Assembly (NCBI GenBank): GCA_029266455.1
Contig: JAQSWV010000027.1
Location: 1 to 55,734 of the forward strand
Source of the DNA: Nocardioidaceae bacterium
GTDB lineage: Bacteria > Actinomycetota > Actinomycetes > Propionibacteriales > Nocardioidaceae
Length of the DNA stretch: 55,734 bases
Reading direction: 5' to 3'
Part shown: positions 3,759 through 12,478 of the stretch, one piece after another
Position numbering within the stretch: position 1 is the first letter of the stretch
Layout of the letters: every line of letters begins with the position of its first letter
Translations under genes and position numbers: made by a program
Notes under the pieces: model-generated
The model's input: only the letters and a program-made list of their open reading frames with translations
The model's database searches: none
What the model was told of the DNA's origin: nothing

Positions 3759-6359
3759 TTAGCTGCAACCGCTGGTACTCCCGCATCCCTCACACACGAA
3801 GCAGCTGCCCGCTGGCCGCATCTTCGTGCCACAGGTGAAGCACAGCGGAGAGTCGACCGCGGAGCCGGTGATCTCCTCCAGCAGCTCGGCGGTGGTGTGC
3901 GCGGTGACCGGCGCTGGCTTGGCGGTCTCCTCGACGACACTCTCGACCGGGGCAGGGGCGGACGTCTTGAGCGACTCAGCTTCCGGCAGCTCCTCGACCA
4001 GCTCGGCAGGGGCCTCGTACGAGCCGGTCTCCAGCTGGCGCTGACGCTCCTCGGCCGAGTAGATGCCCAGGGACGCACGCCGCTCGAACGGCAGGTGGTC
4101 CAGCGCCAGCCGGCGGAAGATGTAGTCCATGATCGACTGGCTCATCCGGATGTCCGGGTCGTCGGTCAGACCGGCTGGCTCGAACTTCATGTTGGTGAAC
4201 TTCTGCACGTAGGTCTCGAGCGGCACCCCGTACTGCAGCGAGATCGAGATCGCCATCGAGAACGCGTCCATCACCCCGGCCAGGGTCGAGCCCTGCTTGC
4301 CCAGCTTGAGGAACACCTCGCCCAGGCCGTCGTCGGGGTACGAGCCCGCCGTCATGTAGCCCTCCGCCCCACCGACGGTGAACGACGTGGTCACCGACGG
4401 GCGCGACTTCGGCAGCCGCTTGCGGATCGGCGCCGCCGGCACCGGCACCTCGACGACCTTCTCGGCCGTGTTGGTCTTCGCGGTTGCCAGCGGCTGGCCG
4501 ACCTTGCAGTTGTCCCGGTACACCGCGAGCGCCTTGAGGCCGAGCTTCCAGCCCTGGAAGTACACGTCGGCGATGTCCTCGACCGTCGCGGACTCGGGCA
4601 GGTTCACGGTCTTCGAGATCGCGCCGGAGATGAAGGGCTGCGCAGCTGCCATCATCCGCACGTGGCCCATCGGCTTGATCGACCGCTCCCCCATCGCGCA
4701 GTCGAACACCTCGTAGTGCTCCGGCTTGAGCCCCGGTGCGTCGATGACGTGCCCGTGCTCGGCGATGTACTCGACGATCGCCTCGATCGTCTCGGTCGCG
4801 TACCCGAGCTTGGTGAGCGCCCGCGGCACGGTCTGGTTGACGATCTGCATCGACCCGCCGCCGACCAGCTTCTTGAACTTGACCAGCGAGAAGTCAGGCT
4901 CGATGCCAGTGGTGTCGCAGTCCATCATGAAGCCGATGGTGTTGTGGCTGACGAACCCGCCGGCAACGTACGTCACGTTATCGGGTACCGACAGGTCGAA
5001 GGTCGGCTGAAGGCCGCCATCCTCGTTGGCCGTGACCGGCTCGAACAGGTAGCCGAGCGCATGGGCCAGCCGGGGGTCCGGCGTCTCGGCCTGGATCATC
5101 CGGGCGGTCTGACGAGACACACCGCCGTGCTTGCCCAGAGCGGAGATGAGCACGCTGCGGTGCGCAGAGCCGCGCGGCACGATCTCGTCCCACACGGCGC
5201 GGGGCAAGTGGATGCGGTCGCGGTTGCCCGACTGCGGCGCCTCGACCTCGGGCAGCAGCGCGTTCTTGCGTCCGCTGATGAAGCCGACGCACTCCTCGAA
5301 CGCCATCGCGTGGTCGAGGTTGCGCAGTCGCACCTGGAAGACGGGGCCACCCCAGCCGCTGACCGTCTCGCGCGTGGTGGTTCCCATGCCCAGCGCCAGG
5401 AGCAGCGTGCGGATCTCGGCGGCAAAGGACTCGGACGAGGTCGAGAGGCTGGGCACCTGCGCGATCACAGTGCCATCGGCCTCGAACACGCCCCGCAGGA
5501 ACGCGGCGTACACCTCGACGTCGTTGGTCTCCAGCACCGCGGAGGGCACTCGCGGGGTCCAGCCCTTGCCGGCGTGGCCGTCACGAGGGGACAACCTGGC
5601 GAAGCCGGCAGCGGTCCACCAGCGGGCCAGCCGCACCGACGACAGGACGACCTCCTGGTAGCCCTGCTGCTGGGTGACAACAGGCTCGAGGTGGAACAGC
5701 TCCTTGCTCAACAGTCGGATCCGCTCGACCACGTCGATGTCGGTGTCGGCAACGGTCAGGCGCACGCCCTTGGCATGCAGGCTGCCGTCGCCCATGAAGT
5801 AGCCGACCAGCTCGGCCAGCTGCGCCGTGACCTGGTCGGGAACGATGACGTTGCGGTCGCCGGCGTAGTAGGCCTGGTCGAGCACAGGCAGCGGCACCCG
5901 ACGGGGCTCACCCACCATCGTGCCGAGCTGGACGGGAACCACGTCGTCTGCGGAGACGTCGGCCATCCGCTTCCACACCCAGTCGCCGGACTGCGGGTCG
6001 ACGACCTTGATGCGGTGGGTCAACGTGCCCTGGATCCGGTAGCCGCCGGCTGTCACGATCCGCCGCGTCGGTTCCTCACCGTTCACGAAGAACTTCGTGG
6101 CCTGCCGCGGCCCCTCGTCGGTCGAGACCTCAACGTCGAGGTCCTGCCAGCGGTCGCCCCACACGTCACCCAGCTCACCGAGGCGCGCCAGTCCACGGTC
6201 GGTGGTCACGAGCGTGTCGGGCGTGAGGCAGCCCGTCGGGGCCAGTACTGAGGCCTGCGCGTTGCGCCAGCCGTTCTTGGCCCCGATCGCCAGGCCGTCG
6301 GCCCACGCCTTGGTGGCCTCGCGATGCACGTTGCGGTCGATCTCGTGCAGCGTGCGCAC
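3759..6359 (-). CDS. nrdJ: Vitamin B12-dependent ribonucleotide reductase NrdJ, C-terminal half with intein (out of frame with N-terminal half)
   Basis: This open frame (866 codons from a GTG at 6359) carries the second half of class II ribonucleotide reductase, which makes deoxyribonucleotides from ribonucleotides with adenosylcobalamin. Recognisable NrdJ sequence begins at [12 protein letters not shown] (from 6371), continues to [11 protein letters not shown], is interrupted by the intein (6230-4941), and resumes with [16 protein letters not shown]. It ends in a Cys-rich tail ([19 protein letters not shown]) typical of NrdJ. The N-terminal half lies upstream in a different frame. Between the halves about 29 residues normally present in NrdJ are missing, leaving one unmatched base at 6372. 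The GTG at 6359 is therefore probably not a natural start but the first start codon in this broken frame. Unless this is a sequence error, the gene is a pseudogene. Confidence 0.85.
4941..6230 (-). mobile_element. Intein with LAGLIDADG homing endonuclease inside nrdJ
   Basis: The insert starts with Cys ([13 protein letters not shown], block A) straight after LAPTG and ends with VSHN before Thr, giving 430 codons. The N-terminal splicing region contains GTLTHRIKV (the TxxH block B). The central part has two LAGLIDADG-type helices, [11 protein letters not shown] and [11 protein letters not shown], each with its acidic residue, so the homing endonuclease looks intact. The C-terminal block GGFVSHN followed by Thr supplies the His-Asn pair and the +1 nucleophile. 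The insertion point is in one of the most conserved stretches of NrdJ, as is usual for inteins. All splicing residues that I can identify are present. Splicing could not restore NrdJ while the upstream frameshift stands. Confidence 0.93.
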
Positions 6360-7725
6360 CTCGTCGTTGGCCGGACTGCTTGTACGCGGTACCGGTCATG
6401 AGGGAGGTGATCGCCGCCGCGAACGCGCGACCGCCCTCGGAGTCGTACGCCAGCCCCGAGGCCATCAGCAGCGCGCCAAGGTTGGCGTACCCGATGCCGA
6501 GCTGGCGGTACGCACGGGTCGTCTCGCCGATCGCCTCGGTCGGGAAGTCGGCGAAGCAGATCGAGATGTCCATCGCGGTGATCACGAACGCGACCGCCCG
6601 CGCGAAGGTCACCGCGTCGAACGAGCCGTCGTCCTTGAGGAACGTCAACAGGTTGAGGCTGGCGAGGTTGCACGACGAGTTGTCGAGGTGCATGTACTCC
6701 GAACACCCCGGGTCGGCGCACTCCCACGCGGCCTGCGCCATCTTGCCCCACAGCTGCCTGGCGTCGACGCTCTCGATGACCTCGCCGGTGAGGCGGCCGG
6801 TCAGCCCGAAGTCGGTGCCATCCTCGACCGCACGCATGAAGGAGTCAGTCACACGTACCGAGTTGTTGGCGTTCTGGTACTGGACGCTGACGATGTCGCG
6901 CCCGCCGAGGTCCATGTCGAAGCCCGCGTCGCGCAGCACGCGGATCTTGTCCTCCTCGCGGGCCTTGGTCTCGACGAACTCCTCGATGTCGGGGTGGTCG
7001 ACGTCCAGCACGACCATCTTCGCCGCGCGCCGGGTGGCGCCGCCGGACTTGATGGTGCCGGCGCTCGCGTCGGCGCCGCGCATGAACGACACCGGGCCGC
7101 TGGCCGTGCCGCCCGAGCTGCGCAGGAGCTCCTTCGACCCGCGGATGCGCGAGATGTTGAGGCCCGATCCCGAGCCCCCCTTGAAGATCAGGCCTTCCTC
7201 GCGGTACCAGTTCAGGATCGAGTCCATGTTGTCGTCGACGGCGAGGATGAAGCACGCGCTCACCTGCTGCGGACTCGACGTGCCCACGTTGAACCACACC
7301 GGCGAGTTGAAGGCGAACACCTGGTGCAGCAGCATCCAGGTCAGCTCGTGCTCGAAGATCTCGGCGTCGTCAGGCGTCGCGAAGTAGCCGTTGTCCTTGC
7401 CGGCCTTGACGTAGGTGAGCACCACCCGATCGATCAGCTGGCGCAGGCTGGACTCGCGCTCGGCGCTCCCGACCGCGCCGCGGAAGTACTTGCTGGTCAC
7501 GATCGTCGAGGCGTTGACGCTCCACGACGCCGGGAACTCGACTCCGCGCTGCTCGAAGACGTTGGCGCCGGTCTTCCAGTTCGTCTGGACGACGTCGCGC
7601 CGCTCCCAGGTCACCTCGTCGTACGGGTGCACGCCGGGGGTGGTGTAGAGGCGCTCGATCGTGAGCCCCTTCGCCTTGCTCGAGGCCTTCTTCTGTGCGG
7701 CCTCGGAGCCGACGGTCTCGGTCAT
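6175..7725 (-). CDS. nrdJ: Vitamin B12-dependent ribonucleotide reductase NrdJ, N-terminal half (frameshifted near 6372)
   Basis: The N-terminal 451 codons (7725 to 6373) are normal class II reductase sequence. They include [50 protein letters not shown] (conserved Gly-rich strand) and the active-site finger loop [11 protein letters not shown] with its Cys. NrdJ similarity stops at [10 protein letters not shown]; the frame then runs on meaninglessly into the intein until a stop at 6175. The continuation lies in another frame from 6371 after loss of about 29 residues. The start ATG at 7725 has a GGAG-like site (gaggagaacc) just upstream. nrdR lies 106 bases upstream on the same strand, the usual nrdR-nrdJ order, with a strong hairpin between them. 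Confidence 0.85.
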
Positions 7726-7831: not shown

Positions 7832-8335
7832 CTAGGTACGGCCCGGTGGGGCCGGCGCGTCGACGTCGTCGGTGGGCTGCGGGTCGCCGGCGCGCTCGGC
7901 CATCAGGCCGGCCACCTCGTCGGCGAAGTCGTCGACCGACTCGAACGCCTTGTAGACGCTCGCGAAGCGCAGGTACGCCACGGCGTCGAGCTCGCGCAGC
8001 GGGTCGAGCACCGCCAGGCCGACCTCGTCGGCCGGTACGTAGGCGGCCCCGGCCGCGCGCAGGGCGGTCTCGACCTCCTGGCCGAGCCGGGCCAGGTCGT
8101 CGTCGGTCACCGGGCGGCCCTTGCAGGCCTTGCGGACGCCGTCGATGACCTTGTCGCGGTTGAACGGCTCGGAGGCACCGGAGCGCTTCACCACGGCCAG
8201 CTGGATCTGCTCCACGGTGGTGAACCGCCGGTCGCACGCCTGGCAGGCCCGGCGACGCCGGATCGCGCCGCCGTCGTCGGCCACGCGCGAGTCGAGGACC
8301 CGGGTGTCGGTGTGCTTGCAGAAGGGGCAGTGCAC
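7832..8335 (-). CDS. nrdR: Transcriptional repressor NrdR
   Basis: A 167-residue protein with the full NrdR layout: an N-terminal zinc ribbon with Cys3, Cys6, Cys31 and Cys34 (HCPFC and ACQAC) and an ATP-cone domain over about residues 46-136 ([15 protein letters not shown], then [11 protein letters not shown]). NrdR senses ATP/dATP and represses ribonucleotide reductase genes by binding paired NrdR boxes. The gene precedes nrdJ on the same strand, the standard actinobacterial arrangement. The C-terminal tail (after residue 140) is acidic and Pro-rich and is variable in the family. A candidate NrdR-box pair lies 111-154 bases upstream of the start, so autoregulation is likely. Confidence 0.95.
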
Positions 8336-9171: not shown

Positions 9172-9414
9172 ATGACGACGATCGCGCTGTTCCACTCCGT
9201 GCTCGGTGTCCGCCCCGGCGTCCTCGACGCCGCCCACCTGCTGCACGCCGCCGGTCATGACGTGCACGTCGTCGACCAGTACGGCGGGAAGGTGTTCGAC
9301 GACTACGACGAGGCCGGGAAGCTCGCCGACCAGATCGGCGCTCATGGCGTCCGCTGCCGAGGCCGTGCGGGAGCTGCCCGAGCAGCTTCAGCCGAGGTGG
9401 CAGCCGGTTCCTGA
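9172..9414 (+). pseudogene. Dienelactone hydrolase family remnant (frameshifted and truncated)
   Basis: From the ATG at 9172 the first 57 residues (ALFHSVLGVRPGVLDAA, then VFDDYDEAGKLADQIG) match the N-terminus of dienelactone-hydrolase-family proteins. At about 9342 the similarity moves one frame over (ALMASAAEAVRELPEQL), and after about 9391 it stops altogether, just before the nucleophile-elbow region. So the gene has both a frameshift and loss of about two thirds of its 3' end. The frame given here ends at a chance stop. It lies next to further gene remnants, which points to local decay. Confidence 0.75.
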
Positions 9415-9547: not shown

Positions 9548-10117
9548 GTGACCGCCGCCAATGTGACACCTCGCGCCTACGCGGACGCCGCGACGTCCGT
9601 GCCATCCGGCGTTCAGCCCGGCCCGTACGTCGCCGAGCCCGGAGGCGGGGAGTCCGCAGGCACGGTCCGTGTTCGTCATCGGCATGCGCATCAACCGGCT
9701 GCGCGCGGTGCGCTCGTGGTGGCCTGTCTTCGCCGCGATGCCGCGGATGCTGTCCGAGCTCTCCGCGGATCCCGACTCGGGTCTGCTCGGTGCGCGCAGC
9801 TACTTCTCCGGCCGGGTCGTGATGGTGCTCCAGTACTGGCGGTCCGTGGACGCCCTCGGCGCCTATGCGCGCGACCCCGCGCGCCAACACCAGCCGGCCT
9901 GGATGCTGTTCAACCGGGCACGGCGGGCAGCGGCGACGTCGGCATCTTCCACGAGACGTACGAGGTGGACGCGGCGTCGATCGAGACCGTGTACGCCAAC
10001 ATGCCGCCGTTCGGGCTGGGGCTAGCGACCTCGACCGCTCCTCGAGGCACCCGGCGCGCCAGCCGTACCGCCAACCGGGTCCGTGGCTCGGAACCGGCAG
10101 TGCCCACGGCCCCCTGA
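9548..10117 (+). pseudogene. DUF4188-like (monooxygenase-fold) gene with two frameshifts
   Basis: Three blocks in order match DUF4188-type proteins of about 150 residues, but in alternating frames. The N-terminal block GVQPGPYVAEP is in one frame; the core VFVIGMRINRLRAV to PAWMLFNR (9669 to about 9915) is in a second; and the C-terminal block GDVGIFHETYEV to ANMPPFGLGLAT returns to the first. Two compensating shifts, near 9650-9669 and near 9920, would be needed to read it. It could be a true pseudogene or carry two sequencing indels. The start given (GTG at 9548) is tentative. Confidence 0.7.
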
Positions 10118-10824: not shown

Positions 10825-10926
10825 CCGACTCGTCAGCGTCACACCGTCACTGGTAGAGCGAAACCTCCACTCCCCGGGCGCTGCAGCGCTGGGGAGGCGG
10901 AGGTTTCGCAGCCCACCCTGCGAAAC
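10823..10926 (+). repeat. Double-hairpin repeat, copy 1 (between dps and methyltransferase)
   Basis: Two overlapping hairpins. The first pairs gcgaaacctcc (10858-10868) with its complement (10899-10909) around an inner palindrome centred on gcgctgcagcgc. The second pairs tttcgcag (10904-10911) with ctgcgaaa (10918-10925) around the loop cccacc. Both use the same ttTCGC bases, so they exclude each other. The copy lies between convergent genes and may also act as a terminator. A related copy is at 11958-12047. Confidence 0.8.
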
Positions 10927-11957: not shown

Positions 11958-12047
11958 ACGCCGACTCGTCACTGCCACAGCGGAACTCTCGCCTCTCGGG
12001 CGCTGCAGCGCCCGAGGAGTGCCGCTTTCGCAGCCCACCCTGCGAAA
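11958..12047 (+). repeat. Double-hairpin repeat, copy 2
   Basis: This resembles the copy at 10823-10926: the same ccgactcgtcac start, a perfect 22-bp palindrome at 11995-12016 centred on the shared gcgctgcagcgc, and an identical second hairpin tttcgcag-cccacc-ctgcgaaa (12026-12047). The outer stems differ in sequence but keep pairing (gcgg at 11980-11983 with ccgc at 12022-12025), which is compensatory change. Just upstream (11897-11945) is another inverted repeat, cactgaa/ttcagtg. Confidence 0.8.
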
Positions 12048-12070
12048 ACAGCAGCGCCACAAGCCGCCCC

Positions 12071-12478
12071 CTACGGCGAGGCGGCCGGAGGGAAGCAGGG
12101 CGCCCCCCGCACCCGTGCGATCCGCCGCTCCGGGTCGACGCGCACGCCGCTCATCGGCGTCAGGTCGATCATCAGGCCCGCCTCGGGGACGGCCTGCCCG
12201 ACGACGCTGTGCCCGCCGCCGCGCACCCCGATCTCCAGGTCGAGCTCGCGGGCGGTGCGCACCGCGGTCACCACGTCGCCGATGCTGGCGCAGCGGACGA
12301 TCAGCGCCGGGCGGCGGTCGATCATCGCGTTCCACACCGAGCGCGCCTGGTCGTAGCCGTCCTCCACGGGGAGCAGGACCTGCCCGTCCAGCCGGTCGCG
12401 GACGACACCCAGCACGGCTGTGCTCACCGACGTCACCATGGCCGGGCACCCTGTCAGTGGCCACCCCCACCAGTCCAC
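12071..12478 (-). pseudogene. FAD-linked oxidoreductase remnant (N-terminal part only)
   Basis: The 135-residue frame matches the start of berberine-bridge-type FAD oxidases (FAD_binding_4): a conserved [20 protein letters not shown] block, then [14 protein letters not shown], the FAD-binding signature, and [16 protein letters not shown]. Intact enzymes are about 450 residues. Here similarity ends at RIARVRGA, followed within ten residues by a stop near double-hairpin repeat copy 2. The gene has therefore lost most of the FAD and substrate domains. The start could be the TTG/ATG region at 12478 or the internal ATG at 12436. Confidence 0.75.

Follow-up and report, generated by a model that had tools for sequence, protein, structure and literature searches.

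Class II ribonucleotide reductases (NrdJ) depend on adenosylcobalamin and make DNA building blocks. The actinobacterial form (NF005122 / PRK06556) is encoded in a single continuous frame, inteins apart, and carries the active-site loop NPCSE (Asn-x-Cys-x-Glu). Split class II reductases are also known: as described in the available part of a report on Pseudomonas (PMC4520616), the enzyme consists of NrdJa and NrdJb, and both the active site and the cofactor site are located in NrdJa. Metagenome assemblies, for their part, are known to contain local errors that corrupt protein genes. The available part of one study (PMC7111523) gives 13 of them in one 1.13-Mb genome and defines such an error by a junction sequence that lacks read support. 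Here we describe an nrdJ gene that lacks two segments, found in a 55,734-nucleotide stretch of DNA from a Nocardioidaceae bacterium (hereafter the window).

Layout of the nrdJ locus

The nrdJ locus contains the following features, from the whole gene through its parts to the adjoining nrdR.

7725-3759, minus strand: nrdJ, whole gene, class II (adenosylcobalamin/B12-dependent) ribonucleotide reductase
6706..7725, minus strand: nrdJ 5′ part, codons 1-340, intact, last residues ...ECADPG
6705..6706, minus strand: deletion A, 72 bp (24 codons) absent, in frame, position ambiguous by one base
6373..6705, minus strand: nrdJ middle part, CSEYMHLDN...GTAYKQS, in the same frame as the 5′ part
6369..6382, minus strand: deletion B, net 86 bp gone with a frameshift, GTAY-KQS abutting ANDEVR
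6175..6372, minus strand: out-of-frame tail of the first reading frame, ending with a stop
6231..6371, minus strand: extein from deletion B to the intein, ANDEVRT...VLAPTG
4941..6230, minus strand: intein of 430 aa, open frame, CLTPDT...SHN, with a LAGLIDADG endonuclease domain, inserted between APTG and T
3759..4940, minus strand: nrdJ 3′ part, ending ...GCGSTSGCS, open frame, with the TSCPD domain and the Cys-rich tail
7832..8335, minus strand: nrdR, intact, adjoining nrdJ

Profile matches show homology to NrdJ across the N-terminal, barrel and C-terminal domains, and the cysteine-rich tail (CFTCG and the residues that follow) can be read directly. The gene is not in one frame. The N-terminal frame runs from the ATG at 7725 to a Ser codon at 6375-6373 and is then out of frame up to the stop at 6175, and NrdJ picks up again in another frame at Ala-Asn-Asp (6371), continuing through the intein down to 3759. 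These reading frames confirm an earlier note on this DNA, which had placed the end of the N-terminal frame at GTAYKQS (6373) and the restart at 6371. The same note had called nrdR intact, in agreement with a TIGR00244 match that covers model positions 1-146 of 147. The nrdJ sequence of the window is found unchanged in its own genome (G000:C99), and locus L001 is identical to it.

Two segments are absent from nrdJ

Deletion A takes 24 residues between ADPG and CSEY, including the Asn-Pro of NPCSE, so that the active-site loop reads PGCSE and both the Asn and the 22 residues before it are absent. The Asn of this loop has a catalytic role. In close relatives, the absent residues are IQYDxTINDWHTxPExGRITASNP. 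The deletion is exactly codon-phased, lies ~330 bp upstream of the break at deletion B, and is seen both by DNA comparison with a congener (G001) and with G016 and by protein comparison with further relatives. Among the 109 related loci that were fetched (29 from one search, plus the 80 best matches from another that gave at least 590; some may belong to the same species), all 109 contain this segment at the same length, 108 by pattern and one with a variant flank (L095) by eye. This conservation argues that the loss in the window is not a matter of chance. A more distant, structurally solved class II enzyme (7b9q) is identical at 14 of the 24 residues by our own count, and its segment ends in SNP before CSE. 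An NrdJ protein with deletion A would very probably be inactive even without the frameshift.

Deletion B was measured from the Tyr of TGxxY to the Asn-Asp, a distance of 13 bp in the window versus 99 bp in relatives, and the break is located ~140 bp before the intein. The distance from the active-site Cys to APTG is 182-187 residues in 105 of the 109 fetched loci; the spacing at deletion B is kept in all 105 measurable ones, a count that leaves out L003, L005 and L095 (open frame stops before the motif) and L087 (a run of N, then a frame change). The reading frames and these spacings bear out the main claim of the earlier note, a deletion with a frameshift in nrdJ just before the intein block, together with its count of about 29 absent residues and one base over, as 86 bp is 29 codons less one base. 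Its figure of ~88 bp for the missing stretch was slightly too high. Its description of one break was right for that break and understated the damage, as the in-frame deletion at 6705/6706 had been overlooked.

Inteins and variants are found in the NrdJ proteins of several relatives. The G033 protein (L116) contains two short inteins, one between SA and CF and the other within the active-site loop between NPC and S, and the spacing of matches points to an insert at the SA-CF site of G012 too. Locus L089, from a related actinomycete bin, reads APTGCLTG and has an apparent intein at the APTG site used in the window. An alignment with the congener G001 (L002 3145-3180) shows TISFMLDSDTTG versus a differing 12-residue stretch in the window, with a Cys-to-Ser difference in a conserved motif.

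Selection on the rest of nrdJ

We compared the codons of nrdJ, excluding the intein and the junction bases, with those of 11 hand-chosen relatives (nine of the 109 loci and longer stretches of G001 and G021). Of 490 columns that are otherwise invariant, 2 are changed in the window gene, and the 11 intact relatives themselves are changed at 1-11. Its dN/dS values are 0.17, 0.25 and 0.26 against G001, G016 and G021, respectively, and G001 gives 0.25 and 0.28 against G016 and G021. The extein pieces and the 430-residue intein are free of internal stops. Together, the two changed columns, the normal dN/dS and the absence of stops point to selection on nrdJ until very recently, or still now. An old pseudogene is ruled out by this comparison: dN/dS is no higher than that of the congener, and the remaining codons show no relaxed selection.

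Other reductases and deoxynucleotide supply

The genome to which the window belongs (3.43 Mb, 128 contigs, 97.15% complete, 0.16% contamination) was searched for other reductases; from its contig number and completeness figures, we infer that the record is a metagenome bin. Profile searches of this genome gave no match to PF00268 (class I small subunit) or PF13597 (class III, NrdD). The barrel domain PF02867 was matched in three pieces, all from the window nrdJ, and in no other gene. TIGR02505 gave a weak, sub-threshold match to the window nrdJ only, and a search with a congener protein that spans both gaps found nothing beyond the window nrdJ locus. The earlier note had reasoned that a dead nrdJ implies another reductase elsewhere in the genome, and no such gene was found in these searches. 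It had offered an assembly or sequencing error as the other option, and this is the one that the empty searches leave favoured.

Four same-family genomes that consist of a single contig (G013, G029, G032 and G036) each match PF02867 once and PF00268 not at all; in Nocardioidaceae, it is therefore common to have NrdJ but no class I small subunit. Strong PF00268 matches are present in 8 of 36 same-family genomes (G008, G011, G018-G021, G023 and G030). The congener G001 contains one nrdJ in one frame, and its PF00268 match is weak (43 bits). Since thymidylate synthase is present in the genome of the window and no PF01712 deoxynucleoside kinase was found there, de novo supply of deoxynucleotides is expected. 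A search for ThyX gave no match in any of four genomes, which says little either way.

Assembly quality around and beyond nrdJ

The assembly was checked with 108 conserved genes (42,326 residues), compared with 1.16 Mb of the genome of the window. The relative G021 supplied 906 gene models (1.24 Mb), of which these 108 matched with at least 50% identity and at least 50% coverage, a cut-off that could miss badly broken genes. Fourteen of the 108 genes were flagged, nrdJ included, and nrdJ is the only one with what we judge to be a real split of the frame in which conserved residues are lost. By our own reading, gene models that are antisense or too long seem to account for a split in L119 and stops in L202, and the pyrophosphatase-like protein L145 has a shorter loop that looks natural. 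The other ten flags are five in-frame length differences of 15-29 residues (one of them a 16-residue loss at 50% identity) and five single stops. Four of these stops come near the end of a model and the fifth midway through a model of 109 residues; a window gene holds one of the five (residue 289 of 310). A generally poor assembly is rejected as far as sampled, as no comparable break was judged real in the other 107 genes, though the single-stop flags remain.

Ten window proteins were also scanned. The conserved proteins RNase J, HflX, DapF, MiaA, MiaB and RNase Y match their families over nearly the whole model, RNase Y lacking some 70 of the 514 positions at the start; a permease has a nearly full match, a DinG-like helicase is matched in pieces, and two others have weak matches only. 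Collapse between repeats was rejected as a cause, as the longest repeated words at the two junctions are 13 and 15 bases, within the 10-18 bases of 40 controls in the sampled genome. In a test for a chimera, the synonymous differences to the congener are 0.27-0.54 for the four nrdJ pieces, for the most part overlapping with the 0.35-0.49 of six other genes, the highest value coming from a 46-codon piece only and the lowest from the 3′ part.

Several features are found on the nrdR side of the locus. A gene for a PF13826 (monooxygenase af470-like) protein at 9669-10114 on the plus strand is in two frames, which match model positions 4-88 and then 86-118; this is a simple frameshift near 9920-9930 in which no model residues are lost. 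It lies 2-3 kb from nrdJ, so this part of the contig has a broken frame besides that of nrdJ. Two apparent gene remnants are an open reading frame at 9172-9411 (plus strand), which gives no Pfam match and presumably resembles the start of a dienelactone hydrolase, and a FAD-binding oxidase at 12074-12478 (minus strand) that is cut after model position 70 of 139. The matches on the nrdR side and at dps are separated by ~270 bp in G001 versus ~1.7 kb in the window. Short segments at 10858-10925 and 11971-12057 match several G001 contigs and are perhaps a small dispersed repeat.

Discussion

We believe that both gaps in nrdJ are probably local assembly errors in a single-copy essential gene, as it is hard to see how what is apparently the sole essential reductase, with an otherwise normal evolution, could lose both active site and frame. 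The living organism would have an ordinary single-copy, intein-containing class II NrdJ, from which the intein would be removed by splicing after translation. The raw reads would contain an intact nrdJ, and both missing stretches would have arisen in assembly. Our confidence is no higher mainly because the clean background in the sampled genes argues against a careless reading of the gaps as assembly noise. With only nrdJ broken among the 108 sampled genes, we would not expect two independent errors to fall in the same gene without some local cause. The exact codon phasing of deletion A and the lack of unusual repeats at the junctions also speak against assembly errors.

This same background fits the main rival, a genuine and very recent break in nrdJ, with another reductase (of class I, or an additional intact nrdJ) encoded in sequence that was left unassembled or unbinned. 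A gene no longer under selection would be expected to collect two lesions, eight family genomes do have a strong class I match, and a frameshifted gene and truncated remnants lie close by at 9.2-12.5 kb. We nevertheless consider this rival unlikely, given that nrdJ shows no decay beyond the two deletions and keeps its intein frame open, that the genome is nearly complete, and that its congener has one whole nrdJ with only a weak small-subunit match. Another, improbable reading is a mixed population in which some cells or strains carry the deleted allele, whose path was followed or merged in by the assembler. Tangled paths are favoured by a conserved nrdJ that shares long stretches between related genomes, but the low estimated contamination speaks against a mixture, and a strain with the deleted allele alone would still need another reductase. 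It is very improbable that the deletions are real and fixed in a free-living 3.4-Mb actinobacterium that has no working reductase, is fed by deoxynucleosides or DNA from its neighbours and keeps an open intein in a gene that has just died.

The two long frames, of which the second could start from a GTG at 6359, might also suggest an enzyme that works as two polypeptides, as in Pseudomonas. We find this hardly credible, since 29 residues of the relatives are lost at the cut, deletion A removes the Asn-Pro of the active-site loop, and 105 of the 109 fetched relatives have a single frame from the Cys to APTG (the other four being unmeasurable). Even less credible is an origin of deletion A as a badly mended intein homing break at the neighbouring site between NPC and S. 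The G033 mini-intein does occupy that site, which deletion A approaches to within 3 bp. However, its ~145 residues, by our own reading, look too few for an endonuclease, the window intein is at a site ~480 bp of coding sequence away, and deletion B would be left unexplained.

If the gaps are assembly errors, as we prefer, they are a warning that an essential gene can seem dead in a draft genome scored as 97% complete, and that claims of gene loss for essential single-copy genes need reads. Were they real, we would have an actinobacterium with no working reductase, which would be a great surprise. Nothing in the broken nrdJ record demonstrates new biology.

Comparison with known systems

Like the local assembly errors described in the available part of PMC7111523, the nrdJ gaps are short corrupted stretches that break a protein gene in a draft genome; unlike them, they are seen in the assembled sequence, whereas those errors are defined by a lack of read support. 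Like NrdJa and NrdJb as presented in the available part of PMC4520616, the window nrdJ is readable as two frames. Unlike that pair, in which the first polypeptide contains the catalytic and cofactor sites, it is cut inside the barrel domain, with residues missing there and the active-site loop damaged. The window gene differs from actinobacterial class II NrdJ in the absence of the 24 residues before the Cys, in the net loss of 86 bp with its frameshift, and in its intein between APTG and T. It shares with this group the N-terminal, barrel and TSCPD domains, the Cys-rich tail and an upstream nrdR, and over residues 1-342 the NrdJ of the congener is 89% identical to it at the protein level.
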